DNA of 26,165 nt from a virus. The notes under the pieces were generated by a model that did no database searches, had not been told where the DNA came from, and saw only the letters and a list, made by a program, of their open reading frames with translations. The stretch is taken from positions 1-26,165 of the IMG/VR virus record IMGVR_UViG_3300009008_000215; one strand, given 5' to 3'. Position numbers and translations under genes: made by a program. This document shows positions 1 to 25,668 of the stretch, one piece after another (within the stretch, counting starts at the first letter, position 1; every line of letters starts with the position of its first letter).

Positions 1-70
1 GGCCAAAAGAAACTACAACTGTTTCGGATGCAGCTTCAGATAGATAGTGTTCCTTAAAACTATGAATCAT
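1..70 (-). CDS. N-terminus of a tagged protein, cut by window edge
   Basis: An open frame starts with ATG ATG overlapping the stop of the lysine-rich gene and runs off the window. The second ATG is preferred because a GAGG lies 6 bases upstream. The 23 visible residues begin MIHSFKEHYLSEAASETVVV and then SFG. The first 13 match the tag shared by the genes upstream, with a likely prohead-protease site LSE|A. The VVVSFG ending is what I would expect at the first strand of an HxGH nucleotidyltransferase (NMN adenylyltransferase-like), a family common in marine T4-like phages, where FGRFNPPTxGH follows. That assignment is inference because the catalytic motif lies outside the window. Confidence 0.55.
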   Translation of the reverse strand, partial: MIHSFKEHYLSEAASETVVVSFG

Positions 71-420
71 CATTTGCCTCGTGCCTTCTTAACGCGCTCT
101 TGATCATCCTTCTTAACTCTAGACTTCAACTTCTTAGCAAGTTTCTTGATCATACCTTTCTTTTTATCAAGCTTCTTCTCAAGAGATTTACGCTGGGCGA
201 ATGACATATCCTTTTTATCCTTACCCTTAGTAAGTTTCTTCGCTACCATATCACGAGCTTTCTTACTAGCAGTCTTCTTTAGCTTCTCAGGATTTTTTAA
301 CTTCTTAGCAGCTTTCTTCTTGCCAATCTTGATTTTAGCTTTTGCCCGCTTCATAGCCTGCTTTTTCTTATTACGAGCTCTTGCATCTAAAGCTTCGTCA
401 AATTCTTTATCCTCTTGCAT
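70..420 (-). CDS. Very basic lysine-rich protein, 116 aa
   Basis: About 40 percent of the residues are lysine or arginine, spread over the whole length in helical-looking stretches, and there are no cysteines. No catalytic domain is visible. Such composition fits a nucleic-acid-binding or DNA-condensing protein, perhaps an internal head or core component; similar lysine-rich proteins occur near structural genes in marine T4-like phages. The ATG overlaps the end of the nucleotidyltransferase gene by 14 bases and has an AAGGGATGGG ribosome site inside that gene, so the two are translationally coupled. Its stop overlaps the next start. It lacks the N-terminal tag of its neighbours. The function is unknown. 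Confidence 0.75.
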   Translation of the reverse strand: MQEDKEFDEALDARARNKKKQAMKRAKAKIKIGKKKAAKKLKNPEKLKKTASKKARDMVAKKLTKGKDKKDMSFAQRKSLEKKLDKKKGMIKKLAKKLKSRVKKDDQERVKKARGK

Positions 421-1636
421 CTGATTCCCATCCCTTAATTATGTCTTTACTAAAGTTGTTGTATGAGAATTCCATACGATCAACTATTTTTAATGCACCA
501 TTTGTAAGGTGGTCAATAGCAACATATCCTTCGGCACCTGTTACTCTAAAACCATCTTTAGTCTTTACAAAGGTATTTATACTATCAATTTTATTGAGAT
601 GAGTAAGTAATTTTCTCTTTGCATACACCAACTCGTTCTGCATATCAAACATATACACAAGGTTTTTGAGGTTGTCTTTAGAGAACCATGCTAATGCAAC
701 AGCTTTCTTCTCAGCTTTATTAGCCTTTCCTCTATCTGATTTCAACTTAGCAATCTCTCTATCATATCGATCATGAATCCACCTAATAAGCTCCTTCGCG
801 TGTTTCTTAGTGTCTTTAATCTCTGATTGGGCTCTCACCTTTGTATTTCTAAATGTGTTAATAAACAGGTTAATCTCTTTATTATCTGCTACATCTTTAA
901 GAGTAGAAGACTTAATCTTGTTGAATAATTTACCAGCGTTTGAAATGTGCTTTGTAATCTCTTCTGTCTCTTTTTTAGTAAGTGTAGCATTTGGCACATC
1001 TGGTAGATCAGCACTCTTTTGCCATACAGATGAAACGTTTTTAAAGTCTGTTAATTTGACACCAAATTGAGCATTCATTGATTCAAATGAACCACCAACA
1101 TATTTGGTATGCCAAACCATACCAATCTTTGCTTTTAGGATATCTTTAGCATCTTCAACAGGTACAGCATACACAATAGTATTAGGATGAAAAGTAACAT
1201 ATTTTTGCCCATCAACAGTTTCTTTCTTTAAATCAGATTGGGTGAACATCATGTCCCCTTGATACACACCTGACTTAATCCCTAGTTTTCTTAACTCTGT
1301 GAATGCAATCTTCAGCTTGTCAGCTAGCTCTCCAGAAGTATCAGCATCAATTTCTGCATGTGACTTATATACTTTTGGATTCTTATTGAAGATACCTTTC
1401 TTAGCGACAAAGAACATACCATCAGAAGGATCAATACCCACAAATACTGCAGGAGCTCCGTCCCATTTAACAGTTACTTGTTTTGTATCATTTGTATGAC
1501 CAGCAAGCATATTACGAAGATCACGAAGAGCATTAATAGCAGATCTAGTACCATTCACGCCACCATCAATCACCATATCTTCGATATGGATCATGTGAGT
1601 GTTCTTTGCCTCTTCTAGGTATTTTTTAAACTTCAT
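407..1636 (-). CDS. KxDG covalent nucleotidyltransferase-like (ligase-like) protein with N-terminal tag
   Basis: 409 residues. After a tag (MKFKKYLEEA, predicted cut LEE|A) comes THMIHIEDM and then VKWDGAPAVFVG at residues 56-67. This is the motif I pattern KxDG of DNA/RNA ligases and capping enzymes, with Lys57 as the candidate AMP-linked residue. GVYQGDMMF resembles motif III, and near the C-terminus EGYVAID followed by ALKIVDR resembles motifs IV and V. The middle is a charged helical insertion. It matches a family of unassigned function that I recall from marine T4-like phages. The gene follows the nuclease-like gene after 3 bases. The ligase fold is well supported by motifs; the substrate and actual sealing activity are not. 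Confidence 0.7.
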   Translation of the reverse strand: MKFKKYLEEAKNTHMIHIEDMVIDGGVNGTRSAINALRDLRNMLAGHTNDTKQVTVKWDGAPAVFVGIDPSDGMFFVAKKGIFNKNPKVYKSHAEIDADTSGELADKLKIAFTELRKLGIKSGVYQGDMMFTQSDLKKETVDGQKYVTFHPNTIVYAVPVEDAKDILKAKIGMVWHTKYVGGSFESMNAQFGVKLTDFKNVSSVWQKSADLPDVPNATLTKKETEEITKHISNAGKLFNKIKSSTLKDVADNKEINLFINTFRNTKVRAQSEIKDTKKHAKELIRWIHDRYDREIAKLKSDRGKANKAEKKAVALAWFSKDNLKNLVYMFDMQNELVYAKRKLLTHLNKIDSINTFVKTKDGFRVTGAEGYVAIDHLTNGALKIVDRMEFSYNNFSKDIIKGWESDARG

Positions 1637-1639
1637 TAT

Positions 1640-2515
1640 TTATCCAGGGAATAGAGTAGAGAATGAAGCCTTAAACACTCCACCATTAATAGCGAATGTT
1701 CCTTTCTTTGATAGAGTCTTAGTATCTGATTGCATGTTTTTGAAATCAATGTAGTGGAACCAAACATCAGTTGGATCACTATCCTTTAAGTTAGCAATAT
1801 ACCCTTTATCACCTGGTTTATCACCAATAGACACATCAATTAGTCTCTTCATAAGACCTACTGCAATACTCTCTGGATCATTAATCTTTGAACCATATCC
1901 TAGTTTCTTTAAGCTCTTTTCAAAGTCATCAACTGTCTTCTTCATATCCTTAAATATCTTGAAGTTTAGTAGATCTTTGTTGTTCTTAAACAACAAAGAT
2001 AGTTCAATGAACTTTTCTGAAGCTTCTAATACATCAGGGTATTTAAATGACAGCTCACCTTTAAATGATTGATTACCTTTTGTATTATCCTTTGCAAATG
2101 CTTGGAATAGATTAGAGATACCAAATAGAGTATTCAACAACGCTCTAAAGTCTCTTCTGTCTTGGAATCGTCCTAGAGAAATAGGATCATGTTTAGGATA
2201 GGCCTTTACCTCAACTGCTTTCTTGTCAATTCTTAAATCAGGTTCAGTGCCGCCTCTAGTTTCCTTCGCTCTGCCGTTAAACAACCAGTATAATGAAATC
2301 TCACCATTACCTACTGTCTTGTCTGGTGCTTCTTTAAACAGTTTAACAAATGTCTTTTTATCCTTAGGATGAATCTTTAACTGAAAGCTCTTCTTAGGAA
2401 TATTGTATTTCCCATGAACCTTCTTTTCTTCGTCAGTCAGCTTCTCATCAATAATAGCTTGGAAACTACTATTTGCCGCCTCGTTTAAAATGTATCCACT
2501 GAATGAATTAATCAT
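1640..2515 (-). CDS. PD-(D/E)XK nuclease-like protein with N-terminal tag
   Basis: 291 residues starting MINSFSGYILNEAA, a tag with predicted cleavage LNE|A. The nuclease signature is clear: Glu72 in GNGEISLYWLF, then EPDLRIDKKAVEVKAY with Asp93, Glu102 and Lys104, in the order and spacing of the PD-(D/E)XK fold. The rest is helical and without recognised domains. The ATG is preceded by AAGAGGG, 8 bases upstream. It lies between the small helix-turn-helix-like gene and the ligase-like gene in one operon. It could be an injected nuclease acting on host or rival DNA, or a repair nuclease; the sequence cannot decide. The fold is likely and the target unknown. Confidence 0.65.
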   Translation of the reverse strand: MINSFSGYILNEAANSSFQAIIDEKLTDEEKKVHGKYNIPKKSFQLKIHPKDKKTFVKLFKEAPDKTVGNGEISLYWLFNGRAKETRGGTEPDLRIDKKAVEVKAYPKHDPISLGRFQDRRDFRALLNTLFGISNLFQAFAKDNTKGNQSFKGELSFKYPDVLEASEKFIELSLLFKNNKDLLNFKIFKDMKKTVDDFEKSLKKLGYGSKINDPESIAVGLMKRLIDVSIGDKPGDKGYIANLKDSDPTDVWFHYIDFKNMQSDTKTLSKKGTFAINGGVFKASFSTLFPG

Positions 2516-2524
2516 AATGCCCTC

Positions 2525-2824
2525 TTAACTGTGTCTTGTTCTCTTGTCTAACACCTTTCTAAACTCTTTAGGTGATATTCCAATAATTCTTGCTGCTTTA
2601 TCAATTGCTAATCCTTTTGGATTAGTAATCCAAATACCTGCAGATTGATATGCCCCAGGATTCTTTTCATAATCCCTTATCATCTGATGATATACCTTTA
2701 TAGCTTGTTTATATTTATTACTATGGACAGCTCTTTTAATAGCATGAGTCCACTTCTTAGGAATAACAATATCTCGAATGGCCTTGGTTAGTTCCCCTTC
2801 ATTATACTGTCTAAATGATCTCAT
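2525..2824 (-). CDS. Small basic helix-turn-helix-like protein with N-terminal tag
   Basis: 99 residues beginning MRSFRQYNEGEL, the same tag pattern as its neighbours (aromatic-x-E|G rather than LxE|A). The body is basic and helical. Residues near 73-92 (LAIDKAARIIGISPKEFRKV) read like a helix-turn-helix, with the glycine in the turn. The ATG overlaps the stop of the kinase-like gene by 4 bases (ATGA), so translation is coupled. A DNA-binding accessory role for the adjacent nuclease-like or kinase-like protein is plausible but not shown. I do not recognise the family. Confidence 0.65.
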   Translation of the reverse strand: MRSFRQYNEGELTKAIRDIVIPKKWTHAIKRAVHSNKYKQAIKVYHQMIRDYEKNPGAYQSAGIWITNPKGLAIDKAARIIGISPKEFRKVLDKRTRHS

Positions 2825-3624
2825 AAGTCTTCTGCCGCCTTCTTAATAGTGTCAGGTGGTACATTATCTACAATCCACTGGAACAGCTGTTTTTGCATCT
2901 CAATGTCTTTATTAATAGGTTTGCCTCGTTTCTTCATTGTAAGGTATTTGAAGTCCTTAATAACAGTTTTGCTATTAGGGAAGAATATTGTGTTTTCACG
3001 ATTGTTTAATAGTACATGAATTGCACCATTGATTGCTAATTTCTTACCTGTCCCCCTAATAAGGCTGAACATAGTATTAGCTGCACCTTTATGTGTTTGT
3101 AGTAGAATGTCAGAAGGAACGACTCGATCTCGTTCTGCATTGTTTTTTACAGCTACTTTATAGCTTGTTAGTACCCACAACATGTGAATATTTGCAGGAT
3201 TATAACCAGCATTAAGAAGATCTGGTAACAATTTAGCTACACTCTTTACGTCTTTTGCTGTGATATCAAATAAGATGTTAGGAAGAGTTTCCTTATTACC
3301 CATTGAAGACAACATGTGTTGCATTGTCTTGTCTTTGATCTTTTTAGAATCTACAAACTGATGTAATTTAAATACATCATCTGGTTTTCTTAAATCTAGT
3401 CCACGGATCTCAGGATATTTCTTCTTTAGTTTAGCAATCTTTAAGAATGCAGACTTCCATGCATCAACATCTCGTGTCTTGAATATTTCACCTTGCATGA
3501 AGTTAGAAGCAGCAAACCCCTTACCAGAGCCTGCGCCACCTGCTAGAAATACGATTTGACCGTACCTAGCTCCGTTTGAAAACATGATAAGTTTCTCTGT
3601 GAGAAACGATTTAAATGGTAACAT
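2821..3624 (-). CDS. P-loop kinase-like protein with N-terminal tag
   Basis: 267 residues. The tag MLPFKSFLTE is followed by GQIVFLAGGAGSGKGFAAS, a Walker A motif at residues 29-36 on a strand typical of the adenylate-kinase/polynucleotide-kinase class. RDVDAWK follows, and SYKVAVKNNAERDRVVPSD later resembles a kinase lid with clustered arginines, as in zeta toxin or Pnk-type enzymes. Start choice: AGGAG lies 7 bases before this ATG. A TATAAATA late box lies 29 bases upstream, so this is the first gene of the tagged operon. The substrate could be a nucleic-acid end, a nucleotide or a small molecule. P-loop kinase is confident; specificity is unknown. Confidence 0.7.
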   Translation of the reverse strand: MLPFKSFLTEKLIMFSNGARYGQIVFLAGGAGSGKGFAASNFMQGEIFKTRDVDAWKSAFLKIAKLKKKYPEIRGLDLRKPDDVFKLHQFVDSKKIKDKTMQHMLSSMGNKETLPNILFDITAKDVKSVAKLLPDLLNAGYNPANIHMLWVLTSYKVAVKNNAERDRVVPSDILLQTHKGAANTMFSLIRGTGKKLAINGAIHVLLNNRENTIFFPNSKTVIKDFKYLTMKKRGKPINKDIEMQKQLFQWIVDNVPPDTIKKAAEDL

Positions 3625-3652: not shown

Positions 3653-3660
3653 TATTTATA
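3653..3660 (-). promoter_or_regulatory. T4-type late promoter box
   Basis: Exact TATAAATA on the minus strand, overlapping the mazG stop and 29 bases before the ATG of the kinase-like gene. The T4 late promoter is defined by this octamer alone. Its place at the head of the tagged-protein operon indicates late expression, as expected for proteins packed into heads. Confidence 0.65.
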
Positions 3661-14188: not shown

Positions 14189-14380
14189 TTAGCCATCCAT
14201 AGCCATAGTGACCATATCATCCCAGTGATTCTTAGTAGCTGTGGAACCAAACTTCTTAGTGAATTCCTTCTTCATCTTGTCGTGTCTCATAGATGTGTTT
14301 TCCATCTTATCTAGTATCCACGCAAACATCTCAGCTTCCTTATCCTTCTTACCTTCTCTTACTTCTTTAAATGTTTTCAT
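14189..14380 (-). CDS. Small basic protein with tag-like N-terminus
   Basis: 63 residues from ATG 14380, chosen because AAGGAA lies 7 bases upstream and the ATG follows the previous stop. It begins MKTFKEVREGKK, close to the T4 capsid-targeting peptide pattern, with a candidate cut VRE|G. The remainder is a charged helical protein (EAEMFAWILDKME, KMKKEFTKKFG) ending in a Trp-Asp-Asp helix. The function is unknown. The longer upstream frame lies inside the previous gene. Confidence 0.65.
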   Translation of the reverse strand: MKTFKEVREGKKDKEAEMFAWILDKMENTSMRHDKMKKEFTKKFGSTATKNHWDDMVTMAMDG

Positions 14381-14381
14381 T

Positions 14382-14585
14382 TTATAGTTCCTTATACTTA
14401 CATTTAACCTGTTTACATGCTTTCTGAAATGCTTTCCACAACTTATTAGGTACAATCATTGTGTCCCCTTCATGTTCTAAATCATCAGCTGCATCACCCA
14501 TAGCATCATGAACTTTGCCCATGTCCTTTGGATCTACATCAACATAATGATCTCTACCTTCTCTAATATCTTTAATACTTTTCAC
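14382..14585 (-). CDS. Small protein with tag-like N-terminus, GTG start
   Basis: 67 residues from GTG at 14585. GGAG lies 7 bases upstream, and the resulting N-terminus MKSIKDIREGRD matches the next gene's MKTFKEVREG. A longer frame to 14678 would sit inside the T-fold-like gene without a ribosome site. The centre is acidic (VDVDPKDMGKVHDAMGDAAD) and the C-terminus basic (KAFQKACKQVKCKYKEL). IRE|G fits a prohead-protease site. Start overlaps the upstream gene by 14 bases. Unknown function. Confidence 0.6.
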   Translation of the reverse strand: MKSIKDIREGRDHYVDVDPKDMGKVHDAMGDAADDLEHEGDTMIVPNKLWKAFQKACKQVKCKYKEL

Positions 14586-14946
14586 CTTTATACTCCGTGT
14601 ATGAACCGTTTTCATTATCCTCAGAAACACTAATTGTAATGTCTCTACCTGAATATTTATATAAAATTGCTTCTGCAATATCGTCTGATATCATCTCACA
14701 ACTCTTATAATCTAACACAAGAGCTCCAACATCATACAACCCCTCAAGCCACCTTTTAAATTGAATGAATTCAATGTCGCGATCATCATGAGTTACTTCA
14801 ATTCCCACTTTAAAGTGAAAAATATGACGATGAGGATATCCAAGAAAACTCACATCAGCTAAGTTTGGGTCGTCCAATGCAGCAGGGTATTTGTGAATAC
14901 CCTCTTTAGCAAACCGAACCCAAATCATTTGTTTTTTCTTAATCAT
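14572..14946 (-). CDS. T-fold-like protein, possibly QueD-related
   Basis: 124 residues. After MIWVRFAKEGIHKYPAAL comes PHRHIFHFKVGIEV with His39, His41 and His44, then FIQFKRWLEGLYDVG and DYKSCEMISDDIAEAI. Strand pair, helix, then S-x-E before a helix resembles the T-fold of pterin/QueD enzymes, where His ligands and a substrate-anchoring Glu occupy such places. It lies among queD, folE and the dpdA-like gene. No catalytic triad is evident, so the function is open. Its promoter -10 is 7 bases from the first ATG; an internal ATG (residue 7) is possible. Confidence 0.6.
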   Translation of the reverse strand: MIKKKQMIWVRFAKEGIHKYPAALDDPNLADVSFLGYPHRHIFHFKVGIEVTHDDRDIEFIQFKRWLEGLYDVGALVLDYKSCEMISDDIAEAILYKYSGRDITISVSEDNENGSYTEYKGEKY

Positions 14947-23390: not shown

Positions 23391-25634
23391 TTATGCGGCC
23401 ACCGCGTCGGTGATCTTATTTACTAATTGACGACTGTGTTTTCCAGTCTTCGCGAATTTACGGAATTGTCTCTTGATATCTTTGATCTCTGTAGACTTTC
23501 CGTTTTTGTTATTTTTAACTTCAAATGTGTCTGAAATCCTACTTCTTTCCTTTGGTGTAGCAATCTTGATAACAAAGAAGTCATCATATCCTGCTTTAGC
23601 ATTCAAGTGAAGAACGCCATCTCCAAGGAACTTCTTGCGATTTTTATCGTAAAACCGCTCTGCTTTGATCCAATCTTGATTGAATGCAATTGCCAGACCA
23701 CTCTTCACGTCATGCTTATTAGCACCAAGGAAGAATCCAATAGTAGTTGCTCCAGTGGCCTCTTTAAGATTCTTAACTAGTGCAGCTGTCATTTCCCTAC
23801 CAGATCCAGCTCGAACTGTTCTCTTTCCAACACGAACAACAACGTCTTGAGTATCAACATCAACTCCTTTTCCATTGTTAACGATCTTAAATCTGTAGTG
23901 TTCTCCTCCAGCATAAATATTATCAGCCATTCCATCTGTAAGAACGATTACATTAGTGTTTTGGGTAGCATAAGTCTTGTTGAACTTATTAACGATCTTC
24001 TCAGCAGCAATCAGTGTCTGATTTAGAGGAGTTGATCCATAACTATCCAACTCACTGAAGTTATATTGACTAATTCCATATGTCCATAGGCGGCTATGTC
24101 CACGTACTCCAGTCAACCACAGGCCCATTAGAGCTTCGTTAAACTCCTTCTTGGTCATTCTGTTAGACAGAACCTCTACAATCTTCACGTCAATGTTTGC
24201 AATGTCACTACTTAGTTTCTTACTCTGAACCTCGTTGGAACGGTATGGATCCAAGTTACGACTTGATGTGAATGTGTATATCTCAAATGGAATGTTTACT
24301 CTCTTGCAAAACTGACCAATAATCATTGTCTGACGAACAGTATCTTCGATGATACTTTCCATTGAACCAGATAGATCCATGAACATAATAATTCCGTGAC
24401 TCTTTGCTTGTGCAAGTTTTGTTACAGTCTTGAAAATGTCCTCAGAATACTGATACTGATACAACTTGTTAACATTGATTGATCCGGTTTTAGCCTCTTG
24501 AGCACGAGAATACTCATAAGCAGCTTTCTTACGATCAAAATCCTTTGCCATCATATTTACAATCGTCTTGTGAGACTTCAAGGCTGCCTCATAATCTTCA
24601 CGAAGTCTGTTATAGTAAATAGAACCAGAGTGGGAACCACTAAACCATTCTGTCTCTCTGATCCATTGACGACGACGATCAGCAAGAAGTGTCTTATAAT
24701 CAAAGATCATTGCATCAATGTTTGAATTGGTAATACCATTACTGAACAGAGGAACTTTATCTTTATCATTTTCACTCTTCTCAAGCAGTTCTTGTGCATT
24801 TCCGCGGAAAGTGTCGTCTGTTTGAGTATCAGAAGCACTCACAGACTCACTCTCGTCTGGAGATCCCTGATCTCCAGCGTCTTCAGACATCTCGTTCCTT
24901 TCATCTCCTTCATCAGATCCCTGATCTCCAGCATCTTCAGACATCTCGTTTGGAGATCCCTGATCTCCAGCATCTTCGGACATCTCGTTCCTTTCATCTC
25001 CAGCGTCTTCGGATATCTCGTTCCTTTCATCTCCTTCATCAGTGGAGAATTCAAACTCTTCTTCACTATCCTGGTAGTCCTCACTATTACCAATGAAATC
25101 ATGTATTTCTTTACATGCTTTTAACACATCATCCCATGTATCAACACCCATAGCAAGATCAACAAATGGTTGTTCTGTCTTGCTAAATTCGATTGGGAAG
25201 TAACCACGACCCTTTGCATAGACATTCAAGCGATCCATGAATGACGCTTTAGTCATATCACGACCTTCTGTTCCAAACAAGTTGTCATCAAATAATCTCT
25301 TGTATCCTTTTTTGAATGGACGAACTATACCAGGATACATTTCCTGGATCTTGTTTTCAATTCGGATATCTTCAATGATGTTCACATATGATTTTGGAAC
25401 ACCAGGAATAGTTTTGTCAGATTCGTGCCATCCTTCAGCGGGAGTGAATAAGGCGTGGCCAACTTCGTGACCAACAAGCATGTCATAAACATCCTTACCC
25501 TTATCCGCCCATAACGGAAGTTTTAGAATTCTGTCTTCAACATCGAATGATGCTGTAGGATAGTTGCCATGTTGAACCGTAAGATTCTCCTTTGCAAGCA
25601 GCTTCGCTAGATAATTCTGTGATTGTAAATTCAT
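23391..25634 (-). CDS. cobT: CobT-like VWA protein with HExxH domain
   Basis: 747 residues from ATG 25634; a TTG 21 bases upstream gives a longer frame, but AGGG lies before the ATG. The N-terminal domain has HEVGH at 56-60 and NIIEDIRIE at 85-93, a zinc-peptidase-like pattern. Residues about 190-270 are an acidic repeat (GDERNEMSEDAGDQGS-like, four NE-x-SEDAGD units), as in CobT linkers. A VWA domain follows, with MIDAS DLSGSMES at 420-427 and VIVLTDGMADN. The partner is the CobS-like ATPase. Role: probably a metal-dependent adaptor or protease in a MoxR-VWA remodelling complex; a cobalt-chelation role is unlikely without CobN. Confidence 0.85.
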   Translation of the reverse strand: MNLQSQNYLAKLLAKENLTVQHGNYPTASFDVEDRILKLPLWADKGKDVYDMLVGHEVGHALFTPAEGWHESDKTIPGVPKSYVNIIEDIRIENKIQEMYPGIVRPFKKGYKRLFDDNLFGTEGRDMTKASFMDRLNVYAKGRGYFPIEFSKTEQPFVDLAMGVDTWDDVLKACKEIHDFIGNSEDYQDSEEEFEFSTDEGDERNEISEDAGDERNEMSEDAGDQGSPNEMSEDAGDQGSDEGDERNEMSEDAGDQGSPDESESVSASDTQTDDTFRGNAQELLEKSENDKDKVPLFSNGITNSNIDAMIFDYKTLLADRRRQWIRETEWFSGSHSGSIYYNRLREDYEAALKSHKTIVNMMAKDFDRKKAAYEYSRAQEAKTGSINVNKLYQYQYSEDIFKTVTKLAQAKSHGIIMFMDLSGSMESIIEDTVRQTMIIGQFCKRVNIPFEIYTFTSSRNLDPYRSNEVQSKKLSSDIANIDVKIVEVLSNRMTKKEFNEALMGLWLTGVRGHSRLWTYGISQYNFSELDSYGSTPLNQTLIAAEKIVNKFNKTYATQNTNVIVLTDGMADNIYAGGEHYRFKIVNNGKGVDVDTQDVVVRVGKRTVRAGSGREMTAALVKNLKEATGATTIGFFLGANKHDVKSGLAIAFNQDWIKAERFYDKNRKKFLGDGVLHLNAKAGYDDFFVIKIATPKERSRISDTFEVKNNKNGKSTEIKDIKRQFRKFAKTGKHSRQLVNKITDAVAA
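24853..25040 (-). repeat. Imperfect tandem repeats encoding the acidic linker
   Basis: Four copies of CTCCAGC(A/G)TCTTC-type sequence (plus strand) with variable spacers encode NE(M/I)SEDAGD units. Substitutions between copies are mostly silent (AGC/GCG, AGA/GGA), so the repeat is held at protein level. All three minus frames and two plus frames stay open here, which creates false ORFs. Confidence 0.8.
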
Positions 25635-25668
25635 AATATATGCCCTATTTCTCAATTGTTACATATAC

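Follow-up and report, generated by a model that had tools for sequence, protein, structure and literature searches.

Why should neighboring genes of a T4-superfamily phage, encoding proteins with unrelated bodies, begin with nearly the same short peptide? The question is raised by the virus fragment IMGVR_UViG_3300009008_000215 (positions 1 to 26,165 of the record, a stretch of about 26 kb called the window below), in which a MazG-like gene, a late promoter box and six genes, g1 to g6, follow one another on the minus strand up to the window edge (Table 1). A preliminary description of this DNA held that five of these genes share an N-terminal peptide like that of the T4 internal proteins. We consider it highly probable that the window phage is a Kyanoviridae-like member of the T4 superfamily and that this is a late cargo operon, whose enzymes carry a tag like the T4 capsid targeting sequence (CTS) and would be loaded into the head, cut there and delivered with the DNA. 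Its nearest sequenced relatives, judged by the DUF6267 protein encoded by g4, are phage C48C1, Methylophilales phage Melnitz, Stenotrophomonas phage DLP_6 and Pelagibacter phage HTVC008M. The positions that the preliminary description gave for the genes, their N-termini and the late box were all confirmed. The five tagged genes are not in an unbroken row, as had been stated, since the lysine-rich g5 sits between g4 and g6; g5 itself is untagged here, as described, while the lysine-rich gene at the equivalent position in phage C48C1 is tagged (MLSFKQFVSEVL).

The parallel to T4 can be drawn residue by residue. Mutagenesis of the CTS of T4 IPIII assigned residues 4 and 7 to targeting and residues 8 and 10 to processing (PMC9026906, section 2.6), and the prohead protease gp21 cleaves after L/I-x-E in T4 (PMC9026906). 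The conserved tag positions in the window are those that mattered in this mutagenesis, in agreement with the parallel proposed earlier. The shared peptide can be summarized as [FY]xx[FYH][LI]xE. The essential T4 spacing (aromatic residues 4 and 7, I/L as residue 8 and E as residue 10) is found exactly in g1 (F4/F7/L8/E10) and g4, and the tags of g3 and g6 are one residue longer, with the aromatics and LxE present. A strict pattern composed from the T4 residues, M-x(0-5)-[FY]-x-x-[FYH]-[LIV]-x-E, has 2 matches in the window versus 0.035 expected (P = 6e-4). A relaxed pattern fits 4 window genes, and because it was partly shaped by window sequences its P is not independent. The strict pattern, too, was composed after several sequences had been viewed, so its behavior in T4 and the association with virion proteins described below matter. 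In T4 it matched 3 of the 272 open reading frames (ORFs) called, namely IPII, IPIII and gp61.1. The last of these (L189, NC_000866 18966-19130) is a 54-amino-acid (aa) hypothetical protein that starts MKTFKEFIKED and is encoded beside primase gene 61; its sequence makes it a packaging candidate within T4, and its neighborhood roughly matches the helicase-primase surroundings seen here.

In order to see how far the tag extends, we examined 118 loci of relatives comprising 672 protein families. The strict pattern occurred in 19 of the 672 families, against a mean of 0.6 and a maximum of 4 in 200 shuffles, and at internal methionines in only 1 of 1839 windows. Tagged genes were concentrated within six genes of the anchors (84/1096, anchors left out) relative to farther positions (10/994; p = 5e-15, a value that is only nominal because the loci are related, a problem from which the family count is free). 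The tag is swapped among unrelated families and is the only part that these 19 share. The operon slots between the helicase and nrdA change their cargo from phage to phage, and other contents include ExK proteins (L067, L081), a polynucleotide-kinase-like protein (L015, phrog_505, 1.7e-8) and members of phrog_1462. Tagged small proteins starting MKSFNRFINEGRNTWYRGHK (L106, 1832 onward) and MKPFKEFIEETTYYRGHPSG (L108, 6905-7399) are possible ADP-ribosyltransferases, a likeness judged by eye only; the L108 protein, which also occupies one of these slots, has a YRG start and no match in Pfam or PHROG.

Conservation within families falls into two zones. Bodies of the g3 family are 87-91% identical to that of the window, and conservation is strict from residue 13, while in residues 1-12 only F5, Y8, L10 and E12 are invariant, which places the conservation boundary at the predicted cut. 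The tags of DUF6267 proteins likewise vary freely save at the motif positions, ahead of a body that begins KNTHxxHxED, and in the AlphaFold model of g4, the only protein that could be modelled well, residues 1-14 have a predicted local distance difference test score (pLDDT) below 50 and lie outside the fold. In distant DUF6267 orthologues (HTVC008M, S-SZBM1) the tag is reduced or missing, and orthologues without it include those of locus L123 and S-CREM2 (gp87). The cyanophage copies inspected (S-SZBM1, S-SM1, S-CREM2) are untagged and those of the window's clade tagged. Judged from these alignments and the model, the tag is a detachable module.

Published virion proteomes of relatives link the tag to the head. 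The cytidylyltransferase of this operon was detected by mass spectrometry in virions of S-SM1, as T4-GC190 (PMC3037559), S-SCSM1 (PMC9602691), S-SZBM1 (PMC9146016) and S-CREM2 (PMC10665884). All four proteins are tagged (MKKFSAFLNEA, MKSFLQFLKEA, MRFRQFIIEA and MKNFSSFLTEA, respectively), and no mention of a targeting peptide was found for them in the available portions of the four reports. Since these relatives are in virions and all copies are tagged, the window phage likely packages its tagged enzymes as well. Among non-structural ORFs of S-CREM2, 4 of 5 tagged proteins were detected in the virion as against 24 of the 190 without a tag (p = 0.0016), by a pattern in which L or I could stand in for the first aromatic residue. 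The four are a SAM hydrolase, an APH-like kinase, a 78-aa protein and the cytidylyltransferase. A first crude pattern ([FY] within 8 residues, LxE by 17) was rejected as too loose and had no link to virion detection in S-CREM2 (p = 0.2), which indicates that the choice of pattern matters; the T4 run supports the stricter one. The untagged DUF6267 proteins of S-SZBM1 (141) and S-CREM2 (87) are absent from the published virion lists. Missing detection is weak evidence, and it points in the same direction as the link between tag and packaging. In S-SCSM1, each of genes 89-93 of the corresponding operon bears the annotation 'virion protein', and gene 90 belongs to phrog_1462, together with an L018 protein that starts MKSFKSFDLVEA near DUF6267. 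With four virion proteomes and the enrichment in S-CREM2, the earlier expectation that these proteins are likely packed in the head is supported. As a separate observation, S-CREM2 gp12 (L119 7704-10313) is a Cas9-like nuclease found in the virion with FASFMAE/A about 20 residues in, and its true start may lie downstream of the annotated one.

The capsid proteins of relatives offer a second view of the predicted cut. Their major capsid proteins carry FLSE/A, LLGE/A, FMTE/A or FLTE/T shortly ahead of the start of the conserved mature part, where cleavage is assumed from T4. These sites and the tags end alike, which makes them candidate sites of one kind. The gp21 family (PF03420) was present in six of the seven relatives searched; no gp21-type protease was found in the 26-kb fragment.

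Expression of the operon is predicted from its promoter box. The gap that separates the MazG-like gene from the gene after it contained TATAAATA in 23 of 23 distinct sequences of relatives, and the genes behind these boxes differ, encoding P-loop proteins, g2-type proteins and others. The proposal that the operon lies behind a T4-type late box at 3660-3653 is borne out, and its tagged genes are predicted to be expressed late. The window has 6 copies of TATAAATA versus 2.5 expected. One copy (14661-14654, in the minus-strand stretch 14189-14661) precedes small genes starting MKTVHTRSIKVKSIKDIREGRDHY (14615) and MKTFKEVREGKKDKE (14380), whose tag-like N-termini end in IRE/G and VRE/G; these genes may make up another late unit, coding for small packed proteins.

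Three other explanations have to be set against delivery by the head. That the N-terminal likeness is due to chance or is part of the enzyme folds has a negligible probability in our estimation: the motif is short and two window genes fit the loosened pattern only, but 19 families stand against 0.6 expected, unrelated bodies share the motif, untagged orthologues exist (L123, S-CREM2 gp87) and the tag is a low-confidence N-terminus in the DUF6267 model. Both forms of this explanation were rejected on the conservation of the g3 tag, the family counts and that model. It is also very improbable that virion detection reflects co-purified abundant late proteins and that the tag marks late proteins for something else, for example for a replication or late transcription complex. 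Possible co-purification of abundant proteins with virions is a caution raised in the S-CREM2 study itself (PMC10665884), and it counts against our own reading too. Such contamination, however, does not fit the enrichment of tagged proteins among those detected in S-CREM2, the recurrence of the cytidylyltransferase in four independent proteomes, or a motif made of the residues that mapping in T4 tied to targeting and cleavage, with sites of the same kind in the capsid proteins of relatives.

Somewhat more credible, though still unlikely, is that the tag targets the prohead core and the proteins serve there as core or assembly proteins, not as enzymes delivered to the host. IPIII partly acts in this way in T4, where its mutants are defective in head assembly (PMC9026906), and Lys-rich, low-complexity proteins are encoded in the same operon. 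The bodies of the tagged proteins, in contrast, are catalytic domains in which motifs are conserved (KWDG, FNPPTNGH, P-loop, PD-ExK), and bodies at the same place vary between phages; variable cargo therefore fits better than a fixed scaffold.

Several observations nevertheless weigh against packaging and delivery of tagged enzymes. Virion proteins 90 and 92 of S-SCSM1 have no clear tag, and the strict pattern has no match anywhere in HTVC008M, so a tag is not required, nor do all relatives have one. Protein 191 of S-SZBM1, small and tagged, is missing from those detected in its virion. The published proteomes are those of relatives and record presence without N-termini, and the window phage is metagenomic, without an isolate. 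The preliminary description had all five N-termini ending in a probable gp21 site, which stands for the LxE of g1 (LTE), g3 (LNE), g4 (LEE) and g6 (LSE) and fails for g2, where YNE breaks the rule; g2 (F4, Y7) lacks L/I at P3, fails the strict and the relaxed pattern, and has a doubtful tag. In g1 the E of the tag is also the E of its family's conserved EKLIM motif, which makes the cut site of g1 less certain than its tag. The P1' residue in DUF6267 relatives is A, Q, E or N, and often not A.

The proposed course of events follows that of T4 IPIII. The tagged proteins would be made late, and their N-terminal 9-12 residues (two aromatics about 3 apart, then [LI]xE) would bind the scaffold core during prohead formation. 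Once the bound protein is enclosed in the head, a gp21-type prohead protease would cut after E and free the mature enzyme inside, in this case a P-loop kinase-like protein, a probable nuclease, a ligase-like DUF6267 protein and a nucleotidyltransferase. We infer cleavage after LxE from the sequences and injection into the host by analogy: T4 internal proteins and Alt are ejected with the DNA (PMC9026906), and T4 Ip2 and Ip3 block type IV restriction (PMC12373910). Along with its DNA, the phage thus probably brings in a small set of enzymes, which would act in the next host ahead of phage gene expression; their likeliest targets are nucleic acid ends, NAD-type nucleotides or host defenses.

Table 1 Features of the late operon and its promoter boxes in the window
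Feature	Positions	Strand	Remarks
Late promoter box	3653..3660	-	T4-type, TATAAATA, between MazG-like gene and g1
g1	2821..3624	-	P-loop kinase-like (Zeta toxin family, phrog_5268); tag MLPFKSFLTE at 3624-3595, then K
g2	2525..2824	-	99 aa; weak tag MRSFRQYNE at 2824-2798, then G
g3	1640..2515	-	Probable PD-(D/E)xK nuclease; tag MINSFSGYILNE at 2515-2480, then A
g4	407..1636	-	DUF6267, nucleic-acid-ligase-like; tag MKFKKYLEE at 1636-1610, then A
Further box	574..581	-	TATAAATA within g4; may serve g5/g6 as an internal late promoter
g5	70..420	-	Lysine-rich, 116 aa; no tag
g6, 5' part	1..73	-	Cytidylyltransferase/NMNAT-like; start 73/70; tag MIHSFKEHYLSE at 70-35, then A; runs off window

The bodies behind the tags belong to different protein families. 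The g1 protein matches the Zeta toxin-type P-loop kinases (PF06414, 26.5 bits versus a cut-off of 22.3, 5e-6), a match that does not imply toxin activity, and g2 clusters with longer proteins bearing MQSFQNHIDEA-type tags. In g3 the motif PD-x8-ExK lies at residues 92-104 with P92, D93, E102 and K104 invariant, among only 7 close sequences, which points to a probable PD-(D/E)xK nuclease; its structure model is poor (pLDDT 41), and no relatives were found among sequenced phages. The g4 protein matches PF19782 (DUF6267; 6.6e-97, 325.6 bits versus a cut-off of 27) and has the ligase-like motifs KWDG, EGYV and KIVDR, with K57, D59, G60, EG 369-370 and K383 invariant in the alignment. Its nearest folds are RNA ligases (VIA ranks 1-14), with Z no higher than 6.8 and a best Foldseek E of 0.29, not a confident match; because this likeness is weak, we only propose that DUF6267 is nucleic acid ligase-like. 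The g6 gene is full-length in a 100% identical contig (L006, 11564-12391), where it encodes 275 aa with an HxGH-type motif (FNPPTNGH) and matches PF01467 (4.9e-6; 27.2 bits versus a cut-off of 21) and phrog_395 (4e-66). In S-PM2 (L183) the DUF6267 and cytidylyltransferase domains are fused in frame, and phrog_455 covers both domains, a sign that g4 and g6 cooperate. A search of cellular genomes found no such cytidylyltransferase, a PDB sequence search with g1, g6, DUF6267 and g3 gave no meaningful match, and defense-system calls by PADLOC were discarded as weak and implausible. Elsewhere in the window, a 754-aa protein (23391-25655) contains a long acidic repeat of EMSEDAGDERN units (24839-25102).

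A kinase, a ligase and a nucleotidyltransferase together suggest nucleic acid end repair or NAD metabolism at entry. It is conceivable, if doubtful, that the operon is a pre-loaded repair and counter-defense kit of an injected polynucleotide-kinase-like P-loop enzyme, ligase-like DUF6267 and NMNAT-like nucleotidyltransferase. Were this so, DNA or tRNA cut by defenses, or depleted NAD, could be mended ahead of any phage gene expression, and the adjoining slots would hold exchangeable nucleases and possibly an ADP-ribosyltransferase-like protein.

The T4 tag is known with diverse cargo, and a review suggests that its use may be widespread among T4-like phages (PMC9026906). In the literature searched, capsid targeting was treated together with cyanophages only in that review, and DUF6267 was not mentioned; such a conserved late operon, with tagged enzymes, appears not to have been described in marine T4-like phages. 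If our reading is true, a sequence rule from T4 mutagenesis would predict head-borne proteins of uncultured marine T4-like phages and make many hypothetical genes into injected effectors that can be tested, and it would account for the recurrence of a metabolic-looking cytidylyltransferase in cyanophage virions.

Parts of the operon have counterparts in known systems. The virion cytidylyltransferase of cyanophages (T4-GC190) is of the same family as g6 (phrog_395), has the same synteny and is tagged; it comes from isolates with virion data, whereas the window phage is a metagenomic relative. With DUF6267 (PF19782) the window shares a clear member, g4, which differs from the inspected cyanophage copies in being tagged. 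T4 Alt, a packaged ADP-ribosyltransferase, is catalytic, gp21-processed and injected, as proposed for the window phage, but it is cut at ITE-6 and at the C-terminus without an IPIII-type tag, and no Alt homologue is proposed in the window. The CTS of T4 IPII and IPIII have the same N-terminal aromatics at 4/7, I/L at 8 and E at 10, end in [LI]xE, belong to late genes, as predicted for the operon from its promoter box, and are all that is common to otherwise unrelated bodies. The T4 proteins, however, are small basic inhibitors encoded near gene e, while the tagged proteins here are larger enzymes whose genes sit together in a predicted late operon close to the gp41 helicase.

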